37,154 nucleotides of DNA from Caldifarciminota bacterium (GTDB taxonomy: Bacteria > Hydrothermota > Hydrothermia > LBFQ01 > DSFT01): positions 1 through 37,154 of the forward strand of contig JANXBH010000016.1 of NCBI GenBank assembly GCA_025060695.1, written 5' to 3'. Positions within the stretch are counted from its first letter, which is position 1. Each line of letters opens with the position of its first letter. The notes beneath the pieces were generated by a model. The model saw only the letters and a list, made by a program, of their open reading frames with translations, was not told the DNA's origin and did no database searches. This document shows positions 11,255 to 34,420 of the stretch, in pieces. The translations under genes and the position numbers were made by a program.

Positions 11255-12358
11255 CTAAAATTTCCCAAGTATTGAAAATGATTGAATAAAATTAGATGTA
11301 TTTCCAGTTAAGAAAAATGGTCCATTGTATAGTAAATCTGAAGATAGTGCTGCATCAAGTCTTATAAAGCCTATTTCATATCCGATACCAAGTGTTAAAT
11401 TGCCTAAACGACCTATTTCCGTTGACTTGCCTTGAGCATCCCGATTAAATAGAAAATCATATGTAAATGAGCTTCTTAGCTTTATGTTATCTCTTATAGC
11501 TTTTATTTCACCACCTAATAATAGACCTATAGAGAAATTTGAGGTTTTTGTTTCTACGTTATTTTCCCTATTTGTCTGACTGGTTGATACTGCGGATAAT
11601 CCCACAATGCCAAAGCCGATTTCTGATATTGGCAGGTTTAATCCTCCACCCGCTCCAAATACAGTTCTTGAGCTTTTTAAGTCAGGATTTTGATTAGTTG
11701 CTGGATTATCCCTGTTTTCACTTCCTGTTGCAAAAAGTGCATAGACTATAAAGGGCATGCTATAAAATCTTCCAAGAAATCCAAAATTATTAGAGCTATA
11801 TTCTACGTTAACATTATTTCCTGTCTTATTTTTGCCTGAGACAAATTGAAAAGGAATACCTATGTTAAGACCACTCCTTTCTGAGATATAAAAGCTTAGT
11901 GATGGATTGAATCCTATGGCTGATGCATTTACTGTTGTAGCTGGATTTTCTTTATCGTCTAACGAGAATGTGCCTAGTCTTATGTTTAGCCCTAAAGCTA
12001 TGTTTTGTAGATTGAAACTACCTAATAGATCAACTGGGACTATTTCAAAACCGGTTATCTCGTCTGATATTCTATCTCTTCCTGCATATGCACCAAAACC
12101 AAATTCTCCATATTTTCCAAATGCTGAAGCATAAGCATAATTACCGTATACGTTATTTCGAATAACTGGAGTTTCTATAGTAAAGTGAGCAGGAAATCTT
12201 AGTGCAGTAGATGGATAGAATTGAATTAAGAATTCATCGTCTAAGAGAAAGTTGGCATATCCGAACCTTACGGAATTTTGAGTAATTACGTTCACTCTTG
12301 TTTCGGTTGCATATGCGAGACCCATCAGAAGAATTGTAAAGAGTGTTATCTTCTTCAT
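11255..12358 (-). CDS. Predicted outer-membrane beta-barrel protein
   Basis: A 367-residue protein with a clear signal peptide (MKKITLFTILLMGLAYA, cleavage before TE). After it come repeated amphipathic strands rich in Gly/Tyr/Phe (FGEFGFGAYAG-like, IALGLNIRLGTFSL, NLTLGIGYEIGFIRLDAALSSDLLY). It ends in an aromatic strand, IQSFSILGKF, typical of the C-terminal barrel signal (terminal Phe). The barrel probably spans the whole mature protein. No specific porin family is recognised. A strong ribosome site (AAGGAGGT) precedes the ATG. It is the first gene of the long minus-strand cluster and diverges from rpsT. Confidence 0.75.
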   Translation of the reverse strand: MKKITLFTILLMGLAYATETRVNVITQNSVRFGYANFLLDDEFLIQFYPSTALRFPAHFTIETPVIRNNVYGNYAYASAFGKYGEFGFGAYAGRDRISDEITGFEIVPVDLLGSFNLQNIALGLNIRLGTFSLDDKENPATTVNASAIGFNPSLSFYISERSGLNIGIPFQFVSGKNKTGNNVNVEYSSNNFGFLGRFYSMPFIVYALFATGSENRDNPATNQNPDLKSSRTVFGAGGGLNLPISEIGFGIVGLSAVSTSQTNRENNVETKTSNFSIGLLLGGEIKAIRDNIKLRSSFTYDFLFNRDAQGKSTEIGRLGNLTLGIGYEIGFIRLDAALSSDLLYNGPFFLTGNTSNFIQSFSILGKF

Positions 12359-12383
12359 AGCTACCTCCTTCTTTTAAAGTCCG

Positions 12384-12393
12384 AAATTTTAAG
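12384..12393 (-). promoter_or_regulatory. Promoter element of the outer-membrane barrel gene
   Basis: CCTTAAAATTT on the minus strand (TAAAAT core 12391-12386) lies 27 bases before the ATG. Here the leader contains AAGGAGGT, in contrast to the leaderless-looking genes that use the same motif. Confidence 0.5.
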
Positions 12394-12448
12394 GTATGGA
12401 TTTTCCATAATTTTTAAAAATTTAGAAACTTAATAATTATAGTTGGCT

Positions 12449-12458
12449 TTAAAATTTT
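12449..12458 (+). promoter_or_regulatory. Promoter element of rpsT operon
   Basis: CTTTAAAATTTT with TAAAAT at 12450-12455 stands 6 bases before the rpsT ATG. No Shine-Dalgarno sequence fits between, so the message is probably leaderless. Confidence 0.5.
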
Positions 12459-12461
12459 GAA

Positions 12462-12731
12462 ATGCCAAAAGTAAAGTTATCAGTTAAAAAAAGAGAAAGG
12501 CAGAATAAAAAGAGAAGATTAAGAAACTTGTTATATAAAATGAAGATAAAGAGTGTAATTAGAAAGTTTTTGAAGGCTAAAAATTTAGAGGAAAAGAGGG
12601 AAATACTTAAGGAAGTGTATGAATATGTTGATAAAGCTGTTAAAAAAGGAGTTATACATAGGAACAAGGCTAGTAGAATAAAGAGTAAATATGCAAAGTT
12701 ATGCTTAGAAAAACAAAGCAAAGAAGTATAA
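12462..12731 (+). CDS. rpsT: Ribosomal protein S20
   Basis: An 89-residue, strongly basic protein (PKVKLSVKKRERQNKKRRLRN at the start). VKKGVIHRNKASRIKSKYAKL near the end matches the S20 hallmark IHKNKAARRKSRL. It binds 16S rRNA in the small subunit. It is the first gene of a seven-gene plus-strand cluster. The downstream fur-like gene starts 31 bases before its stop, in another frame. Confidence 0.93.
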   Translation: MPKVKLSVKKRERQNKKRRLRNLLYKMKIKSVIRKFLKAKNLEEKREILKEVYEYVDKAVKKGVIHRNKASRIKSKYAKLCLEKQSKEV

Positions 12732-13084
12732 TTATGGATATTTTAAGAGAAACCAGAAACCATCCAACAGCAGAGGAAATATACTTAAAGGCCAGATTAT
12801 ATATGCCCAAAATAAGCCTTTCAACAGTATATAGAACTTTAAGAAGTTTAGTAGAAGAAGGGAAAATATTAGAAATTAAGGTTTTTGGAGAAAATCATGC
12901 AAGATACGATTATCCGTTAGAACAACATCAACATTTCTATTGTAGAAAATGTAAAGAACTTATTGATTTATATGGAGATTTTTATTATCCAAACAACATT
13001 CCACATAAAGTGGAGGAGATTAGGACAATTTTTATAGGAGTATGTAAGGATTGTTTAAAGGAGGAAAATGATGAAAAGGTATGA
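12701..13084 (+). CDS. Fur/PerR-family transcriptional regulator
   Basis: A 127-residue metal-responsive repressor. The winged-helix part has TKQRSIIMDILRE, HPTAEEIYLKAR and ISLSTVYRTLRSLVEEG (recognition helix). EQHQHFYCRKC and the C-terminal CKDC give the structural zinc Cys4 site plus histidines of the sensory site. I keep the start inside rpsT because the first helix (RKTKQR) is conserved in the family; the later ATG at 12734 would delete it. Fur versus PerR versus Zur cannot be decided by eye. Confidence 0.88.
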   Translation: MLRKTKQRSIIMDILRETRNHPTAEEIYLKARLYMPKISLSTVYRTLRSLVEEGKILEIKVFGENHARYDYPLEQHQHFYCRKCKELIDLYGDFYYPNNIPHKVEEIRTIFIGVCKDCLKEENDEKV

Positions 13085-13358
13085 AAGTATGTTTATTGTA
13101 GATAGTAAAATTGATGAAAATGAAAGATATAGAATTATAAATAAGGTAAAAGACTTTATTGAAAGGACAGGCGGTAAAATTATAAGTTTTGAAGAATGGG
13201 GTAATAGGAAACTTGCTTATCCTATTAAAAAAAGAAAAGAAGGTTATTATGTTCTTTTAAAATTTGAAGGCGATAGTAAACTTTCCCTATCTTTAAGAGA
13301 GTTTTATAGGCTTGAAGAAAATATTTTAAGAAGTATAATAATAAAGGAGGATGACTAA
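13068..13358 (+). CDS. rpsF: Ribosomal protein S6
   Basis: A 96-residue S6 protein: RYESMFIVDSKIDENE opening strand, GGKIISFEEWGNRKLAYPIKK in the centre and a C-terminal RLEENILRSIIIK. It binds 16S rRNA together with S18, encoded two genes downstream. A strong AAGGAGG lies 4 bases before ATGATG; either ATG may be used. It overlaps the Fur gene by 17 bases. Confidence 0.95.
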   Translation: MMKRYESMFIVDSKIDENERYRIINKVKDFIERTGGKIISFEEWGNRKLAYPIKKRKEGYYVLLKFEGDSKLSLSLREFYRLEENILRSIIIKEDD

Positions 13359-13804
13359 TGGCACAGCTTAAACTTCCGAGTGTAAATCATATCATTCTTT
13401 CAGGAAGGCTTGTAAGTGACTCAGTGATTAGGTCCTTACGAAGTGGAAGTAAAGTATTGGAATTCAGGATAGCATCTAATAGAAGATATACGTATAACGA
13501 CCAACTGAGAGAAGAAACTTTATATATAAATTGCGTATATATTGGCAATAGAGTAGACGAGTACTCAAATATCTTGAAAAGCGGATATCCTATTATATTA
13601 GAAGGAAGACTAAGGTATAGAGAGTGGACCGACAAAAATGAGAACAAAAAGAAAGCTTATGATATTGTTGTTGGAAGAATTCATCTTTTAGAAAAAACGG
13701 AATCAGAAGAACCGGTAATAGAACCTCCTCCCGATGATACTGAAGATAATGATAAAGTAAATTTTGATGAAGAGTCTGTAGATGAAGATGATATACCATT
13801 TTAG
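13358..13804 (+). CDS. ssb: Single-stranded DNA-binding protein
   Basis: A 148-residue SSB. The OB fold covers about residues 8-112 (NHIILSGRLVSDSVIRSL, FRIASNRRY, LYINCVYIG, GYPIILEGRLRYREW). An acidic linker follows, and the tail ends DEDDIPF, the usual partner-binding peptide. It coats single-stranded DNA in replication and repair. TAATG overlap with rpsF and an upstream GGAGG show translational coupling. The rpsF-ssb-rpsR-rplI order is the common bacterial one. Confidence 0.96.
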   Translation: MAQLKLPSVNHIILSGRLVSDSVIRSLRSGSKVLEFRIASNRRYTYNDQLREETLYINCVYIGNRVDEYSNILKSGYPIILEGRLRYREWTDKNENKKKAYDIVVGRIHLLEKTESEEPVIEPPPDDTEDNDKVNFDEESVDEDDIPF

Positions 13805-13816
13805 GAGGTAAAAACT

Positions 13817-14008
13817 ATGAAGAAAGAAAGGATAAAAATTGACTGGAAGGACGTAGAGTTATTAAAACAATATATTACTCCAAGGGGTAAGATTATGCCA
13901 AGAAGACAAACGGGACTTTCCGCATATGAGCAAAGGAAACTTGCAAAAGCTATAAAGAGAGCAAGGATTATGGCACTACTTCCATTTGTGGAGGACTACT
14001 ATCTATGA
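13817..14008 (+). CDS. rpsR: Ribosomal protein S18
   Basis: A compact 63-residue S18: [50 protein letters not shown] contains the conserved centre of the family. A good site (TAGGAGGT) precedes the ATG. It forms the S6-S18 platform heterodimer of the 30S subunit. The stop overlaps the rplI start (ATGA). Confidence 0.96.
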
Positions 14009-15655: not shown

Positions 15656-16250
15656 AATACAACCTTACTCCAAAACTATCTCCGAGATAACTATGATAAA
15701 AATAATTAAAAATCAAAAACTTATATCTATATCCAATAGAAAATCCGTTCGTATTAGTTCCATAACCTATACTAATGCTTGATGTTTGATTTAATTTATA
15801 GCTAAAAAATATCTTATATTCCATCTCATATCCCTTCTCTAAGAATATATCGAAACCAAAAAATGCACTTTTATATTCACTAAAGGTACAAAAATATGAA
15901 AATCTATTTATTAAAGTATATGCACATATTGAGAAGTTCAAAAATTCTCTGTGAAATCCTAACCCAAAATTTATCCTATTTGGATATTCGTATATAGCAT
16001 TTGAACCTATTGAAAGCAAGCTTATACCTATAGAAAATAGATTTACAAATTCCTCCTCAACATTTATACTATACCAAAAGAAACCGAAATTTCTATAGCT
16101 AATTCCAAATCCGTATCTATTTAATAAATTAAAATCTCTCCTAATAAATGTCTCAATTTTTAATTTTTCATCTAAAAATTGTGGTGCGTATAGTGTTGCT
16201 ATCGGTAGTTTATAATGACTTAGTGCAGAAAATTCATAAAAGAAAGTCAT
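15645..16250 (-). CDS. Hypothetical barrel-like membrane protein
   Basis: A 201-residue protein, unusually rich in Tyr, Phe and Ser, with alternating strands (GFGISYRNFGFFWYSINVEEEF, GLGFHREFLNFSICAYTLI, SISIGYGTNTNGFSIGYRYKF) and a C-terminal aromatic strand FGVRLYYEI. This looks like a small outer-membrane barrel of the PorV-like type. There is no recognisable signal peptide from the ATG at 16250, so either export is atypical or the start is wrong. A CTTTAAAATTT element 5 bases upstream argues that the ATG is the true start of a leaderless message. Function unknown. Confidence 0.5.
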   Translation of the reverse strand: MTFFYEFSALSHYKLPIATLYAPQFLDEKLKIETFIRRDFNLLNRYGFGISYRNFGFFWYSINVEEEFVNLFSIGISLLSIGSNAIYEYPNRINFGLGFHREFLNFSICAYTLINRFSYFCTFSEYKSAFFGFDIFLEKGYEMEYKIFFSYKLNQTSSISIGYGTNTNGFSIGYRYKFLIFNYFYHSYLGDSFGVRLYYEI

Positions 16251-16253
16251 TCT

Positions 16254-16264
16254 AAATTTTAAAG
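16254..16264 (-). promoter_or_regulatory. Promoter element of the barrel-like gene at 16250
   Basis: CTTTAAAATTT on the minus strand, TAAAAT core ending 5 bases before the ATG. It is back-to-back with the matching element of the divergent gene at 16285. Confidence 0.5.
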
Positions 16265-16269
16265 TTATA

Positions 16270-16280
16270 CTTTAAAATTT
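16270..16280 (+). promoter_or_regulatory. Promoter element of the gene at 16285
   Basis: TATACTTTAAAATTT reads toward the ATG at 16285; TAAAAT is at 16273-16278, 6 bases before the start. The divergent minus-strand element is only a few bases away, so the two genes share one promoter region of 34 bases. Confidence 0.5.
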
Positions 16281-16284
16281 CATT

Positions 16285-16866
16285 ATGACGAGTTTAGAGA
16301 TGATGAAAGATATAGTAGAAAATAAGAGGAGCGGTCTTTTGAAGGTAGGAGAATATATATTTTTGTTCAAAGATGGCAAGCTACTTGAAGTTGCAGGGAA
16401 AACTACAAATAAAGAAAAAGCCTTAGAGGACGTTATTCAAAATAATTACGAAAATTCGGAATTTCAGGAAATAGAGGCAACTGTTCTTATTTCTTTTCAA
16501 GAGCCACTTGATATAAGTGATAAGCTTCCAAAGAAAGTAGGAAGAAAAATTTTATTGGATGAAACATTAGTAAAGAAACTACAAGACCTAAGGCTTATAG
16601 TTCCAAGTTTAAATAGTGCAATTGTAGGAAAGTTAGGTGCTGAAGTGGTTGCATACTTTAATATAAGTGAAGATGAATTGGATGGTATCATAGAGAAAGT
16701 AGAGAAAGTATACGAAAAATTTCCCGAAATAAACGATATGATACTAAACACGCAGGATTCATCTATCTATATAAGGATAAAAAATCAAAGCTATATATTT
16801 TGCAAGCTTAGAAGTATAGAAAATATTGGAATTTTAAGGATATACATAAGTAAGGTGTTAGCATGA
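16285..16866 (+). CDS. DUF4388-like plus roadblock-like protein (tentative)
   Basis: A 193-residue protein. The first 60 residues ([24 protein letters not shown]) resemble the PATAN/DUF4388 domain, which is common in signalling and gliding-related proteins. The last 90 residues ([23 protein letters not shown], then a helix, then [30 protein letters not shown]) have the alternation of a roadblock/LC7 domain, which partners small GTPases. Neither match is strong. It is followed with a 4-base overlap by infA. Confidence 0.45.
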
Positions 16867-17084
16867 GTGATAAGAAGGATGTTATAAAGGTTGAAGGAAC
16901 TATAAAAGAAGTTTTGCCAAATGCACTGTTTAGAGTAAAATTAGATAATGGTATGGAAATTTTAGCATATCTCTCAGGTAAAATGCGTATTCATTATGTG
17001 AGAATAGTTCCAGGAGATAGAGTAGTTGTAGAACTTCCAGTTTACGATTTAAGTAAGGGAAGGATAGTTTATAGGTATAAGTAA
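16863..17084 (+). CDS. infA: Translation initiation factor IF-1
   Basis: A 73-residue OB-fold protein: [34 protein letters not shown] then [30 protein letters not shown], full family length. It binds the ribosomal A site with IF-2 and IF-3. Unusually it is not in a ribosomal protein operon here; it follows the DUF4388-like gene with ATGA overlap. A weak AAGGTG precedes the ATG. The stop faces the CARF ORF stop across one base. Confidence 0.95.
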
Positions 17085-17085
17085 T

Positions 17086-17490
17086 TTACTCGCTTTGATA
17101 ATTAGTAACATCAAAAACCTTTATTTCCTTTGTATTAGTGGATATATAACAAAAATATCTATCATACGCAAGGGAAGAGAAACTTCCTGCCGCTGATTGA
17201 ATTTTTTGCCCTCCAGTTATGTCTATTAGTATATCATTTGGTTCGATTTTTTTGTCTAATATTAGTTTTTCATATATTTCTTCAATAACTTCTATATTTT
17301 TTCTTAAGTCTTCAAAGTCTATACCTTCTTCAAATGATATAATTTCTATCTTTTCTCCGTAAAGACTAAATTCTTTTATCTTTCTAAAAAGCGTTTTAAA
17401 GTATTCTATTTGTTCATAGCTTTCTTTAGATGGTATTATATAAACGTACTTTAGACTATCTTTGAATTTGTCAATTATTCTTATCTGCAT
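17086..17490 (-). CDS. CARF-domain protein, C-terminal part of a probable membrane CARF effector
   Basis: The 134-residue ORF has a CARF (Rossmann) look: a first strand YVYIIPSKES, helices, IEIISFEEGIDFEDL, then the signature D90-I-T-G-G-Q-K96 (ILIDITGGQKIQSAAGSF) and YFCYISTNTKEIKVFDV. CARF domains bind cyclic oligoadenylates made by type III CRISPR Cas10. The open frame continues upstream of the ATG through FQGRKIAWEM, which recalls the PW(Q/R)M element joining the membrane part to the CARF domain in membrane-anchored members. It then hits TAA codons. So the ATG is probably internal and the ORF the surviving 3' part of a broken gene. Confidence 0.65.
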   Translation of the reverse strand: MQIRIIDKFKDSLKYVYIIPSKESYEQIEYFKTLFRKIKEFSLYGEKIEIISFEEGIDFEDLRKNIEVIEEIYEKLILDKKIEPNDILIDITGGQKIQSAAGSFSSLAYDRYFCYISTNTKEIKVFDVTNYQSE

Positions 17491-17905
17491 TTCCCAAGCT
17501 ATTTTCCGTCCCTGAAAAATTTCATTTATAGATTTTTGGCATTAATATTACTTAAAAATATTATCAAAGCTTTTGGTTTATATTGATGTCTTTTATTAAT
17601 CTCCATCCCATATAGAAATTTGTAAGTCCAAAAAATATCTTAAGAGCACCATATACGTAATCTTCTTTCATGAGACTAAGACTTTCTTCAATAGATTTTA
17701 AATTTAGTTTTATGTATATTTTTAGAGGTATAAGGCTCTCTGGTAAGTGATTTGTCAGGTTTTCTAAGAATTTTGTTAGATTTATTATCTGATTTGTTAG
17801 TTAGGATAGCAAGGATAAAAAAACAAAGAGGAGTAAAATATTTTCAAGCTTGGATTCTCTTTTTTGTGAGGAGAGATGGATTCTCGTAGTTGTTAGAAAA
17901 ATAAG
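17491..17905 (-). pseudogene. Degraded N-terminal and membrane part of the CARF effector
   Basis: Minus-strand pieces join on to the CARF ORF. From about 17905 an open frame without ATG (VELIFLTTTRIHLSS, then a membrane-like helix KLENILLLFVFLSLLS) stops at TAA 17803-17801. The same frame resumes at 17800 and runs 78 codons to TGA 17566-17564 (LTNQIINLTKFLENL, EDYVYGALKIFFGLTNFYMGW). A frame change and two TAA codons then separate it from FQGRKIAWEM and the CARF domain. The most economical reading is one membrane-CARF gene of roughly 270 codons with two or more stops and one frameshift. Confidence 0.55.
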
Positions 17906-17910
17906 CTCTA

Positions 17911-18129
17911 CTAATATATAATGTAAATTACCGTGGAAGTTATTGGTATTAGAGAAGGAAATATGTAAACTATAAAAATCTTTGAAAATGCAACTGATTC
18001 AATTATTTCTGCAAAACCGTCTGCAAGCCAAGATATAGAAATGAGAATTAAAATAGTGATTAAGAAAGCCAACGGTGTCTTAATTTTACCTATTACCTTA
18101 ATTATACTTAGTAAAGCTTCATTTCCCAT
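17911..18129 (-). CDS. Small two-helix membrane protein
   Basis: This 72-residue ORF begins MGNEALLSIIKVIGKIKTPL and contains two long hydrophobic segments, about residues 20-37 (FLITILILISISWL) and 48-72 (FSKIFIVYIFPSLIPI). Its stop overlaps the likely beginning of the broken CARF-gene frame. A CTTTAAAATTT element lies 20 bases upstream of the ATG. It may be an intact small membrane component of the decayed defence island, or another remnant. I do not recognise a family. Confidence 0.35.
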   Translation of the reverse strand: MGNEALLSIIKVIGKIKTPLAFLITILILISISWLADGFAEIIESVAFSKIFIVYIFPSLIPITSTVIYIIY

Positions 18130-18152
18130 GCTTAAACCTGTATTAAAAAATT

Positions 18153-18359
18153 TTAAAGTTTTTCTAAAATATTCATTGCTGGAGACATAAAGACTGTTGA
18201 GTATAGTTTTTTAAGCGAAATTATTCCGCTTATAGGTTTTAAAGCTACGAACATAGCTATTGTTAAATTCAATATATAGTATTGCAGTATTTTGGTTAAC
18301 TGATTTGATTAAATAATAAGTTTAGGAACTATCTTTTCAATACCATCCACTGAGCTTAC
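18153..18359 (-). pseudogene. Unrecognised membrane-like gene fragment
   Basis: A minus-strand frame from 18359 (SSVDGIEKIVPKLII) is broken by TAA at 18311-18309. It then continues for 51 codons to TAA 18155-18153, with the hydrophobic stretch YYILNLTIAMFVAL and then SGIISLKKLYSTVFMSPAM. No start codon or Shine-Dalgarno site supports an intact gene. It lies between the HEPN fragment and the small membrane protein and looks like part of the same decayed island. Confidence 0.3.
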
Positions 18360-18365
18360 TACTTA

Positions 18366-19084
18366 TTATTTCCTCTTGGTCTTTCTTGGTATTTCATATT
18401 TACAATTGTGTTCAAAACCCGCATGTGCAAAGAAGTTTCTTTTTTGTAAACTTCCATCATATTTTTCTTTAGTTAATTTGCTATATTTTTTAGGCTTTTC
18501 ATCTATTTCGTTTTTAATCTTCCTAATAACTTCTTACCCTTTAAAAATTTAAATCATCTTTTCTAGTAAAGTTCATACTTCCTAAATATGCTTTTACTAA
18601 GTTTTCAAACTCTACAGTAAGTTTTGCGGTTCTTTTTACTTGAATTTTGTTTGATTTTGTATCAATCTTTATATAATTGTCCTTACATCTTTTTACGATT
18701 TCCTTTATTCTATCCTTCATTTTATCATGACTTAACAAATATTATTCCTTTCTGGAATATCTTCGTTGTCTGGTTCAATTAGCTTTTTTTACTCTGACAA
18801 GCAGTAATGCTTGGAAATGTACTTGAGTGTTCTACTACATGAATGTTTGAAGTTTGAATAGTTTGACTGTATGGTTCTGAGTTTAAAACTTTCAAAGTTA
18901 TATCACCAATCCAATAATTTCTTCAAATTCGAATTCTAACTGATATAAAACAGAGTAATAGAAATCGCTCATCCCCCCTTATCATAACTTTCAAATTCAA
19001 TATTTGTAAATCTGTTTCTGAATTTTTTATTACAGTTTCTTCTATATATGCTCTACTTCTTTTCACTGCTTTGGATTTCCTCAT
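18366..19084 (-). pseudogene. Csx1-like CARF-HEPN ribonuclease, frameshifted remnant
   Basis: Minus-strand fragments line up in the order of a Csx1-family gene. 18923-19084 reads MRKSKAVKRSRAYIEE to LNLKVMIRG. A frame change at a G6 run (18973-18978) leads to SDFYYSVLYQLEFEFEEIIG, and another frame change to ITLKVLNSEPYSQTIQTSNI then VVEHSS, recalling the VYNSEPY block after the CARF core. 18541-18738 (KDRIKEIVKRCKDNY, VKRTAKLTVEFENLVKAY) opens the HEPN domain, and 18366-18533 carries QKRNFFAHAGFEHN. R-N-F-F-A-H is the RxxxxH ribonuclease motif. The 5' end of the CARF domain is missing where the M32 carboxypeptidase promoter now lies. At least three frame breaks make it non-functional. Confidence 0.6.
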
Positions 19085-19090
19085 ACACCT

Positions 19091-19104
19091 ATACTTTAAA
19101 ATTT
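19091..19104 (+). promoter_or_regulatory. Promoter element of the M32 carboxypeptidase gene
   Basis: TATACTTTAAAATT, with TAAAAT at 19097-19102, ends 6 bases before the ATG at 19109. There is no Shine-Dalgarno site between. Confidence 0.5.
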
Positions 19105-19108
19105 CAGA

Positions 19109-20608
19109 ATGAATAACTTAACTCCAAAACAAGCGTATGAAAAATTATATAAAATTTCAAAAAGATTAGCATATTTTTCTTCAGTACTATCAATATTAGG
19201 TTGGGATGAGAGAACTTATATTCCTAAAAGTGGTTATAAGTATAGGTCTGAATTAAATGCAGTTTTAGGTGAATATATTCACGACGAATGGACAAAGGAC
19301 TACATTGGAGAACTTATAGAAATTGCGAAAAATGGTGAACTAAACGAGATAGAAAGGTCAAATCTTTATTGGTGGGAAAGGAGCTACATAAGAAGTAAAA
19401 AAATACCAAAGGAATTACTAATTAATCATATTAAAGTTTCTACAGTAGCATATCAGGTATGGAAGGAGGCAAGAGAAAAAAGTGATTTTGAACTATTTAA
19501 ACCATATTTAAATGAAATAGTAAAAATCTTAAGAGAAAAAGTCCAAATTCTTGGATATAAAAATGAACCATATGATGCACTATTGGATGGATATGAAGCA
19601 GAAATTACAGCTGAAGAAATCTCAAAAGTTTTTGAAGAACTAAAGGGAGAAACTATAAGGCTTTTGGAAAAAGTAAAGGAAAAGGATTTTAAAAGACGTC
19701 TAATTAATGGTCATTTTGAAAAAGAAAAGCAGAAAAGTTTTTGTATTTACTTATTGGAAAAGATAGGTTTTGATTTTTCAATGGGAAGAATAGATGAAAC
19801 TACTCATCCATTTGCAACAAGAATACATCCTGGTGATATAAGAATTACTACAAGGTTTTATGAAGACAATATACTTTCAAGTATTTTTGGGACACTTCAT
19901 GAAATGGGTCATGCATTTTATGAAATGGGATTAAAAGAGGAGTATTTTGGAACTCCTGTTGGAGAGGCAGTTTCTTTGGGTATTCACGAGTCTCAATCAA
20001 GATTTTGGGAAAATATTATAGGAAGAAGTTTGGAATTTTGGGAGTTATTTTATAAGGATTTAAGAAGATATTTTATGCACTTTGAAAATATAAAATTGGA
20101 ACATTTTTATCTTGCTATAAATGAAATAAAACCTTCTTATATAAGAGTAGAGGCAGATGAACTAACCTATAATTTACACATTATACTCAGATTTGAGCTT
20201 GAGAGAGATTTAATAAATGGAAAGCTTAGTATAGATGATGTTAAAGATGCATGGAATGAGAAGTTTGAGAGTCTTTTTGGTTTTAGACCGAGAAACGACA
20301 GTGAGGGAATATTACAAGATGTACATTGGTCATCTGACATGGGATATTTTCCAACTTATACACTTGGAAATTTAAATGCTGCACAATTTTTATATAAAAT
20401 AAATAAAGACTTAGGAAATATATACGAACTTGTAAAAGAAGGTAATTTTAAAACTATATACAATTGGTTGAAGGAAAACATATACGAGAAAGGTTCATTA
20501 TACAAACCTCAGGAACTTTTAGAAAAAGTTACGGGTGAAAGAACAAATCCTAAGTATTTTCTAAAATACATAGAAGATAAAATAGAAAAACTGCTAAGTA
20601 TTGACTAA
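19109..20608 (+). CDS. Carboxypeptidase Taq, M32 metallopeptidase
   Basis: A 499-residue, mostly helical zinc carboxypeptidase. The zinc site HEMGH is at residues 264-268 (GTLHEMGHAFYEMGL), and the third ligand/helper lies in GIHESQSRFWEN (His293-Glu294). HPFATRIHPGDIRITTRF and IRVEADELTYNLHIILRFELE are the other family signatures, and DVHWSSDMGYFPTYTLGN ends the active-site cleft. It removes C-terminal residues of cytosolic peptides; family length is about 500. It is transcribed alone; its stop interleaves with that of the convergent permease gene. Confidence 0.96.
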   Translation: MNNLTPKQAYEKLYKISKRLAYFSSVLSILGWDERTYIPKSGYKYRSELNAVLGEYIHDEWTKDYIGELIEIAKNGELNEIERSNLYWWERSYIRSKKIPKELLINHIKVSTVAYQVWKEAREKSDFELFKPYLNEIVKILREKVQILGYKNEPYDALLDGYEAEITAEEISKVFEELKGETIRLLEKVKEKDFKRRLINGHFEKEKQKSFCIYLLEKIGFDFSMGRIDETTHPFATRIHPGDIRITTRFYEDNILSSIFGTLHEMGHAFYEMGLKEEYFGTPVGEAVSLGIHESQSRFWENIIGRSLEFWELFYKDLRRYFMHFENIKLEHFYLAINEIKPSYIRVEADELTYNLHIILRFELERDLINGKLSIDDVKDAWNEKFESLFGFRPRNDSEGILQDVHWSSDMGYFPTYTLGNLNAAQFLYKINKDLGNIYELVKEGNFKTIYNWLKENIYEKGSLYKPQELLEKVTGERTNPKYFLKYIEDKIEKLLSID

Positions 20609-28675: not shown

Positions 28676-31586
<2,911 letters not shown>

Positions 31587-31606
31587 TTAATAGTATTATT
31601 ACTAAA

Positions 31607-31724
31607 CCCAGGCTATCATACCGGTGGGGAAACACTCGGTCCCATTCCGAACCCGATCGTTAAGCCCACCAGGGCCGATGGTACTTCCCTCGCAAGGGGG
31701 TGGGAGAGTAGGTCGTAGCCTGGG
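31607..31724 (+). rRNA. rrf: 5S ribosomal RNA
   Basis: About 118 bases. CCCAGGCTA at the start pairs with TAGCCTGGG at the end, and CCATTCCGAACCCGATCGTTAAG is the typical loop A-C block. It follows 23S after about 20 bases, so both come from one precursor. Downstream, a 7-bp hairpin GAGAAAT/ATTTCTC (31739-31759) has no U-tract and is a poor terminator. Confidence 0.96.
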
Positions 31725-31810: not shown

Positions 31811-34420
31811 ATGAACGAGGCAGAAACTAAAGCAAAACTTGTAGAGAAAAAACTTGAAGCGTCTGGTTGGAATGAGGAAAAAATTTCAAGAGAATTCTAT
31901 TATAATAAAGATTATACTTATACTGAAGGTAGGATAATCTTAATTGGCTCAAAAGTAAAAAGGGGAAGGAGAAAGAGAATAGACTATCTTTTAAGGTATA
32001 CTGATGGCTTTCCTATAGCGGTAGTAGAAGTAAAGTCTGTAGCAGAGAATCCAGAATCGGCACTTGAGCAGGCAAAAGATTATGCAAAAGACCTTGGACT
32101 TGCCTTTGCTTATTCTACCAACGGATATAAAATTATAGAATATGACTTTTTTACAAATACAAGTACTTTATTAGAAAATTTTCCTACACCGCAAGAATTA
32201 TGGAACAGATGGAAAATAAATACTGGTCTAAGTGAACCAATAGAAAGCAATTTAGTCCAAGTAGGACGCGTTTATGGCTATAATCAAAGTTCCATAAATC
32301 CTCTAACATATCCATACTATATACAAGAAGGAAAAGAACCTCGATATTATCAAGAAAGAGCAATAAGGGAAATTATAGTAGGTATACTAAAAGGGAAAAA
32401 AAGAATACTTCTTACTATGGCAACTGGCACAGGAAAAACATTTGTAGCTTTTCAAGTAGTTTGGAAACTTTTAAAATCTGAGCACTTTTTAAAAATAGGA
32501 AGACCTGGAAGAGTTCTATTTCTTGCAGATAGAATATTCCTGAGAAATCAAGCTTATAATACATTTTCACCTTTTAGCGATAAAAATAGCGATCCAAGAT
32601 ATCTAATAGAAGGACATCCTATAAAATTAAATAGACAGATATATTTTGGTATATATCAGACATTATGGACAGAAGATGATAAAAAAGAAAGATTATATCA
32701 AAAATTTCCAAGGGACTTTTTTGACCTTGTAATAATTGACGAGTGTCATCGTTCAGGTTGGGGAACATGGAGGGAAATACTTGACCATTTTGAAAGTGCT
32801 ATACATTTAGGCATGACTGCTACACCTAAGAGGAAAGATAATGTAGATACCTATGCTTATTTTGGAGAGCCTGTTTATGAATATAGTCTATCTCAAGGCA
32901 TAGAAGATGGTTTTTTAGCTACTTACAGAGTTCATAGAGTATTAACTACTATAGACAAGGAAGGCTTAAACTTGGAAGATGCAATAGAACAAGGAGCTGA
33001 AGTTTTTATTCCTGAAGATGTAGAGCCGAGAAGTAAATATACTACTTCTCAATTTGAAAGAGAAATAACATTACCAGATAGAACCAAAAAGATGGTAAAA
33101 CATTTAGCAAACCTTCTAAGAAAATATGGACCTATGGAAAAGACTATAGTCTTTTGCGTGAATATGGAGCATGCGCGTCAGGTAGCTATGCTTTTGCAAA
33201 ATGAACTTGGTCCAGAACTGAATATAGATAAATATGCAGTTCCTATTATTTCAGAGGAGAAAGAAATGGCTCTTGAGTGGTTAGAAGACTTTGCAAGTTC
33301 AGATAGTCCAACACCAGTTATAGCGGTTACTGCGGAACTTCTTTCAACAGGTATTGATGTTCCACCTTGTAAAAACATAGTCTTTATGAAAACAGTATCT
33401 TCTCCAGTGCTTTTTAAACAAATAATAGGAAGAGGTAGTAGAATAGATAAAATAACTGGGAAATATTTCTTTAGAATAATAGACTATACTAATGCTACTC
33501 GGCTTTTTGATAGATGGGATATTCCACAAGAGGAAGAGAAAGTAATACCAAAAGCAACAGGACCTTTAACTGCAGGTATAAAAGGAAAAGTTTTCCATGC
33601 TTTTAAGTATAAAGTAATTCAAGGTGCAAAGGTTTCAGTAAGGACAGGACCAAATACTCAGCAAGGACCTATATTGACTGACAAGGATGGTTTTTTTGAA
33701 TTTAAACACTTACCAGAAGGAGAGCTAATACTTATAGTATCAGCACCTGGTTTTTATAAAAGAAAGCTTTCAGTAGATACTGTAGCAAATAATACAGTTG
33801 AAGTAGAGATTTTTATAAAACCGCAAGTCAAAAGGAAGGAAAAAATAAAGGTAGAGGGTATTGAAGTAGAAATAGCGGAGGAAAAAATATTCATTATAGA
33901 GTCCACAGGTCAAAGCCTTACATTGGAACAATACAAAGCTTATATAGGAGGTAAGGTAAGGGAAAAAGCTGGAACTAAGAGAGAACTTAGAGATATATGG
34001 ATAGATAACTTAAAGAGGAATGAATTTTTACAATTCTTGCGTTCTGCGGGTGCAGACCCTACTGCATTAATAGAAGTAGAGGAGCTTAATTCTGTGGATA
34101 CTTTTGACCTTTTAGCACATCTTTCATATGGAACTTCTCTTAAGACAAGGGAAGATAGATATAAAGCATTTATGAATAGAGAAAGTAAGTTTATGTCTTC
34201 TCTTGAGGAAAAACAGAGGGAGGTAATTGAGGAAATGCTTGATAGATATAGATCATATGGTATAGAAGAAATGACAAGTGAAAAACTCTTTGACCTTTCT
34301 CCTTTTAAAGAATGGGGAAGTATATTGGGTATAAGTAAAAGATTTAGAGGGATTGAAAGGTTTACAAATATAGTTAAAAGCATAATAGAAAAAATTTATC
34401 CTTTGGAGGAAGTGCTATGA
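31811..34420 (+). CDS. hsdR: Type I restriction enzyme R subunit, with an inserted beta domain
   Basis: An 869-residue R subunit. The N-terminal PD-(D/E)xK nuclease has D58, E73 and K75 (IDYLLRY, AVVEVKS) and the QxxxY pair Q87/Y91. The helicase motor has Walker A TGTGKT at 205-210, DECH at 310-313, GMTATPKRKD and QIIGRGSRIDK. Residues about 589-671 form a carboxypeptidase-regulatory-like sandwich (IKGKVFHAFKYKVIQGAKVSV, TDKDGFFEFKHLPEGELILIV, APGFYKRKL) that ordinary HsdR lacks. The C-terminal part (SLEEKQREVIEEMLDRYRSYG) looks like the EcoEI-type R C-terminus. It cleaves DNA after translocation when bound to HsdM/HsdS. The next gene overlaps by 4 bases. Confidence 0.92.
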   Translation: MNEAETKAKLVEKKLEASGWNEEKISREFYYNKDYTYTEGRIILIGSKVKRGRRKRIDYLLRYTDGFPIAVVEVKSVAENPESALEQAKDYAKDLGLAFAYSTNGYKIIEYDFFTNTSTLLENFPTPQELWNRWKINTGLSEPIESNLVQVGRVYGYNQSSINPLTYPYYIQEGKEPRYYQERAIREIIVGILKGKKRILLTMATGTGKTFVAFQVVWKLLKSEHFLKIGRPGRVLFLADRIFLRNQAYNTFSPFSDKNSDPRYLIEGHPIKLNRQIYFGIYQTLWTEDDKKERLYQKFPRDFFDLVIIDECHRSGWGTWREILDHFESAIHLGMTATPKRKDNVDTYAYFGEPVYEYSLSQGIEDGFLATYRVHRVLTTIDKEGLNLEDAIEQGAEVFIPEDVEPRSKYTTSQFEREITLPDRTKKMVKHLANLLRKYGPMEKTIVFCVNMEHARQVAMLLQNELGPELNIDKYAVPIISEEKEMALEWLEDFASSDSPTPVIAVTAELLSTGIDVPPCKNIVFMKTVSSPVLFKQIIGRGSRIDKITGKYFFRIIDYTNATRLFDRWDIPQEEEKVIPKATGPLTAGIKGKVFHAFKYKVIQGAKVSVRTGPNTQQGPILTDKDGFFEFKHLPEGELILIVSAPGFYKRKLSVDTVANNTVEVEIFIKPQVKRKEKIKVEGIEVEIAEEKIFIIESTGQSLTLEQYKAYIGGKVREKAGTKRELRDIWIDNLKRNEFLQFLRSAGADPTALIEVEELNSVDTFDLLAHLSYGTSLKTREDRYKAFMNRESKFMSSLEEKQREVIEEMLDRYRSYGIEEMTSEKLFDLSPFKEWGSILGISKRFRGIERFTNIVKSIIEKIYPLEEVL
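33575..33823 (+). other. Carboxypeptidase-regulatory-like domain within hsdR
   Basis: Codons 589-671 of hsdR give GIKGKVF, QGAKVSV, ILTDKDGFFEFKHLPEGELILIVSAPGF and NNTVEVEIFIKP, the G-V-V and D-G-x-F/Y-x-(F/I) plus L-P-x-G-x-Y/I rhythm of the CarboxypepD_reg/PEGA-like sandwich, usually found in secreted or envelope proteins. Reading frame and codon use are continuous with hsdR. Confidence 0.7.

Follow-up and report, generated by a model that had tools for sequence, protein, structure and literature searches.

The locus raises a simple question: what are the minus-strand fragments that occupy about 2 kb between infA and a carboxypeptidase gene, and which genes did they come from? Below, the window is the whole stretch of DNA that was analysed (37,154 nt), part of a 1.5 Mb genome of a WOR-3 bacterium, assembled into 77 contigs and 94.9% complete. 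Both flanks of the island are intact plus-strand genes confirmed by Pfam: infA at 16863-17084 on the 5' side (PF01176, E 5.9e-26) and a gene for a Taq-type M32 carboxypeptidase at 19109-20608 on the 3' side (PF02074, E 6.7e-173). Translation of the ORFs between them produced solely broken minus-strand frames, as the sequence-only reading had described. Stop-free frames of at least 100 codons cover 23% of the island, whereas most of the window, taken in 2-kb bins, reaches 98-100%; low coverage was otherwise seen in the bins of the 23S and 5S rRNA genes and at 12001-14000. The GC content of the island is 27.5%. Repeats of at least 8 bases common to both island ends were not found, and an Rfam scan of positions 16000-20000 gave no match. 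Some profile matches in the island were taken as chance, namely a weak and spurious one to CAP_C (E 8e-4, in a wrong frame) and weak ones to P-type ATPases in scattered frames.

We consider it very probable (about 0.93) that the island represents the remains of two neighbouring type III CRISPR-Cas ancillary effector genes, both of which are pseudogenes now. The upstream gene would be csx1, coding for a CARF-HEPN ribonuclease. The product of the downstream gene would be a CARF8_TM or Cam1-like membrane effector, which has its helices at the N-terminus and also carries a CARF domain. We prefer this reading because the fragments match CARF and HEPN profiles, because one of the genes aligns end to end with an intact protein, and because the intact pair is adjacent in type III operons.

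The CARF ORF with a DITGGQK signature, noted earlier at one end of the island, was readily confirmed. It runs from 17541 to 17089 on the minus strand, with 151 open codons and DITGGQK intact. Its residues 11-147 matched the PADLOC profile PDLC01053 (TM+CARF) with E 2.3e-32, and the match to PDLC01947 (CARF8_TM) had E 1e-18; the match to Pfam Cas_APE2256 was marginal (18.7 bits, with a cut-off of 24.8). Counted from the ATG at 17490 the ORF has 134 aa, and this ATG, located inside the CARF domain, is not the original start. PDLC01053 also weakly matched the frame upstream of the ORF (E 0.0039), which raised the possibility that this ORF and the membrane fragments come from one gene.

An intact relative of 337 residues, from a Calescibacterium-like genome (locus L094; isolate SKW172, JAOABG010000053), was used for a frameshift-aware alignment. 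Positions 18123-17092 of the island aligned to residues 18-337 of this protein with 129/309 identical (42%), and an alternative scoring gave the same extent. We observed about five frame changes with respect to the intact protein; how many of them fall in the weakly conserved central part of the gene varies with the alignment scoring. The stretch preceding the CARF domain had an alignment score of 139, compared to a maximum of 76 among 40 dinucleotide-preserving shuffles. Moreover, a family profile that we built from 22 intact membrane-CARF relatives matched, in this genome, the CARF half at 17092-17682 (E 3.0e-46) and the membrane half at 17824-18108 (E 2.2e-8); it had no further convincing match there, the third one being at E 0.055. 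By the L094 alignment and the family profile, the CARF ORF and the membrane fragments belong to a single broken gene, a membrane-anchored CARF pseudogene (TM + CARF, Cam1-like) at 17089-18129 on the minus strand, with the membrane fragments as its N-terminal half. The same two results rule out a separate membrane gene between the relics. The membrane-protein fragments reported earlier are thus present, though not as genes of their own, and on the translated sequence the picture is corrected to two genes instead of three sets of fragments.

This gene has no continuous ORF; its pieces are distributed across three frames with stops, as in a pseudogene of the TM-CARF family, for which the family profile and hydropathy place N-terminal membrane helices and a CARF domain in one gene. 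The membrane half (17911-18129) is a 72-aa ORF from the ATG at 18129, closed by two tandem stop codons. Its hydropathy peaks mark hydrophobic stretches, and it contains the motif SWLADG, whose W and D are at least 90% conserved among the 22 relatives. It is colinear with the CARF part, with stops and frame changes intervening. The middle pieces (17529-17800), located by comparing translations with the L094 protein by eye and by DP, are in two other frames. The piece at 17800-17567 reads ...FFGLTNFYMGWRLIKDININQKL, and its L094 counterpart is FFQFYTSSNFFFMVWVFIKDLDLNLKF. The piece at 17639-17529 carries the first CARF strand, KALIIFLS; the corresponding KFRGIIIFLS of L094 spans the strand at residues 154-158 of the predicted model. 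The rest of the CARF domain is in one open frame (17086-17541) with 49% identity to L094.

The AlphaFold model of the L094 protein had a confident CARF domain (pLDDT 75-96 over ten-residue blocks of residues 141-320) and poorly resolved membrane parts. Its best matches among solved structures were the CARF domains of Cam1 (8t66 with Z 15.5 and rmsd 2.4 over 145, then 8t65 with Z 14.8), followed by other CARF effectors and ring nucleases; Foldseek gave a similar order with E-values no better than 1.6e-3. In this predicted fold the relative of the island gene is thus closest to Cam1, while in sequence the similarity was not significant (family profile against the PDB, Cam1 8t64 at E 0.62). The island gene resembles the TM-CARF proteins (PDLC01053, CARF8_TM) in its CARF profile match and N-terminal membrane helices. 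With Cam1 and CARF8_TM it shares a C-terminal CARF domain with DITGG(Q/K)K and, through its relatives, the linkage to type III loci. The family has a conserved Asp in a membrane segment, as Cam1 does in its pore (PMC10808066). On the other hand, the family has two or more membrane helices compared to one in NhCam1, and the window copy is broken, unlike Cam1 and CARF8_TM. Cam1 and similar membrane-CARF proteins act by depolarising the membrane (PMC10808066), and a further example of a membrane effector is Cap1 (PMC12642688).

Pieces of a Csx1-like CARF-HEPN nuclease had been proposed for the other end of the island. They too were recovered, and the comparison of the fragments with CARF and HEPN families gave matches over both ends. 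The csx1 pseudogene (CARF9/Csx1 group; 18302-19057, minus strand) is made of colinear pieces at 19057-18806, 18699-18544 and 18533-18369. The last of these frames carries RNFFAHAGFEHN, in which the catalytic motif RxxxxH is retained as RNFFAH, and matched Csx1_HEPN (PF09455) above the cut-off with E 1.8e-7 (E 1.6e-8 in the whole-genome scan). The HEPN piece itself (18402-18533) also matched PADLOC PDLC01164 (E 6.7e-8), and the CARF9 CARF_HEPN and Csx1 models concurred; it is the sole Csx1 HEPN above the cut-off in this genome. The first piece has one in-frame stop and reads LKVLNSEPY, with LRIRVLNSDPF in a relative. The remnant begins near residue 128 of 455, with no counterpart of residues 1-127, and an internal stretch is missing as well. 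Its 5' part scored 73, while 40 shuffles averaged 47 and reached at most 68. Since this score is modestly above the shuffles, we regard it as modest evidence, and the extension of csx1 upstream of the HEPN piece as probable.

The HEPN piece is like that of Csx1 and Csm6 proteins of the CARF9-HEPN group (6o6s, 4eog), and the intact csx1 relatives match Csm6 6o6s nearly from end to end (E 7.4e-47) and 4eog (E 2.2e-42). Unlike these proteins, the window copy is incomplete, with pieces that come from roughly two thirds of the protein on the C-terminal side. The CARF ligand motif D-x-(S/T)-H-G of the relatives is lost, the island reading VMIR-GDE-RFL there, and the N-terminal CARF domain with this motif, a mark of Csx1, is not seen in the island copy.

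How are the intact relatives arranged? We aligned the window CARF with two relatives and scanned species genomes with this alignment, which produced 42 loci. The closest intact membrane-CARF relatives are 262-338 aa long, and the nearest, with 48-49% identical CARF domains, are those of L094 and L095 (Candidatus Calescibacterium sp. SKYB25, JANXBF010000035). In both, the gene order is cas10, csm2, csm3, csm4, csm5, a 205-aa ORF, membrane-CARF and csx1. As in these type III-A operons, the two effectors of the island are side by side; unlike the operon genes, which are intact and next to cas10-csm2-csm3-csm4-csm5, they are broken and in the opposite order. The 205-aa ORF is at 4869-5486 in L094 and at 4869-5486 in L095; its L094 copy had no PADLOC match. 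The order in another locus, L096, is cmr4, cmr5-like ORFs, csx1, cmr6, membrane-CARF and cas10. With the queries used, at least one type III gene was detected in the fetched stretch at 17 of the 42 loci, and many of the rest were short or would need more sensitive queries. The earlier proposal of a type III accessory locus on its way to being lost is well supported by these data: both genes are broken, and intact pairs are adjacent in type III operons.

Some observations on other loci were of a different kind. In two WOR-3 genomes (L061, 2214-5984, and L062, 188-4098) an intact membrane-CARF gene has as its neighbours an ORF of about 98 aa and a gene for a HerA/DUF87-like ATPase (819-824 aa); no cas gene was seen on these short contigs. 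L061 has a second membrane-CARF gene, which is convergent. Two CARF-query matches on one contig of a same-genus genome (G001:C77, L008 and L017) were false, the ORFs being of FolD and PurA type on reading, with no PADLOC CARF match. The patterns used to look for relatives of the CARF protein had no match in viral contigs.

Intact, more distant membrane-CARF genes with 35-36% identity occur in G002 and G003, genomes from the same family. That the nearest membrane-CARF relatives belong to another lineage hints at a horizontal arrival of the island effectors. In G001, infA (with the preceding gene) and the M32 gene are on separate contigs, so there is no empty ancestral site to compare.

We also looked at the cas genes. 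The sequence-only reading had stated that a CRISPR array and other cas genes were absent. This holds for the window, where no CRISPR-like repeat array was seen (the search covered the window and two cas contig stretches) and no cas10, csm or cmr genes were found next to the effectors. The genome itself does carry cas genes. Contig C1 ends inside cmr4, next to cmr5 and to a RAMP gene that takes the cmr6 place, and a 5-kb contig has a type I-B set of cas7, a cas8b-like TM1802 gene, cas4 and cas1, with a small ORF where cas2 would stand. The proposed genome search for intact homologues found no other csx1 or membrane-CARF gene in this assembly. The cas10 profiles PF22335 and TIGR02577 had no match in this genome; since the cmr cluster is cut by the contig end, cas10 may sit in an assembly gap, and its loss cannot be claimed.

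Two other features of the window were observed. In a type I restriction HsdR homologue (31811-34420), residues 590-667 match a carboxypeptidase-regulatory-like (Ig-like) domain (PF13620) that separates the helicase domain from EcoEI_R_C; downstream are hsdM and then an hsdS-like gene, which has a repeat of 172 nt (94%) at the contig end. The 23S and 5S rRNA genes (28679-31724) are directly downstream of trmD with no adjoining 16S gene, and the rRNA genes appear to be split.

Several other explanations have to be weighed against the two-gene remnant. The CARF ORF could have been inactivated recently or could still be translated, since it is open over 151 codons and keeps its signature residues. 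One may go further and suppose that the 134-aa product continues to be expressed and acts on its own as a cyclic-oligoadenylate sponge or ring nuclease, with the rest of the island dead. The conservation of DITGGQK and neighbouring residues speaks for this, as do two weak similarities, that of the family profile to the ring nuclease Sso2081 (E 3e-4) and one to the curated Crn1 ring nuclease model NF040581 (E 0.0034), the latter at 17.1 bits and far below the cut-off of 125. However, the first CARF strand and the following loop (model residues 154-160, of which L159 and S160 are at least 90% conserved among relatives) are in another frame than the ORF, ATG 17490 falls inside the domain, and an open frame of such length is not unusual soon after inactivation. 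The 134-aa ORF lacks both the membrane half and some of the CARF core, which makes a working stand-alone signalling protein unlikely, and we give this explanation a very small chance. The stand-alone signalling island of the sequence-only reading is likewise unlikely, with both genes disrupted and the CARF ORF missing its first strand. We would give still less credence to a decoy born by gene decay, in which the truncated CARF would be expressed and would damp the cyclic-oligoadenylate signalling of the genome's own type III-B system.

If the frame changes were sequencing or assembly errors, both genes would be intact in the organism. The fragmentation of the assembly into 77 contigs leaves some room for this, while the long flanking genes are unbroken and all interruptions fall within the island. 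Besides, base-call errors do not explain why csx1 lacks some 127 residues at its N-terminus as well as an internal piece, and we regard such errors as a very improbable cause. Chance matches in AT-rich intergenic DNA, to which the GC content of 27.5% and the CAP_C match in a wrong frame might point, are refuted by the profile results, with E 2.3e-32 and 1.8e-7 for families that are adjacent elsewhere and a pre-CARF score beyond all shuffles, and have a practically negligible probability.

The two-gene remnant is ordinary gene decay, cleanly documented: neither gene can make a full product in this genome, and presumably neither is used now. Their past function can be suggested by analogy with their families. 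Cas10 would produce cyclic oligoadenylate upon recognising foreign RNA, and the CARF domains of the intact proteins would bind it and activate them; the HEPN domain of an intact Csx1 would then cut RNA, and an intact membrane-CARF protein would probably open or disturb the membrane. These are known families, and the island adds no new mechanism. A literature search on pseudogenised type III effectors found no paper with all terms. What we see here is a clear example of two type III effectors lost to decay side by side while cmr genes and a type I-B set persist in the genome, and this joint decay fits the view that type III effectors are gained and lost rapidly.
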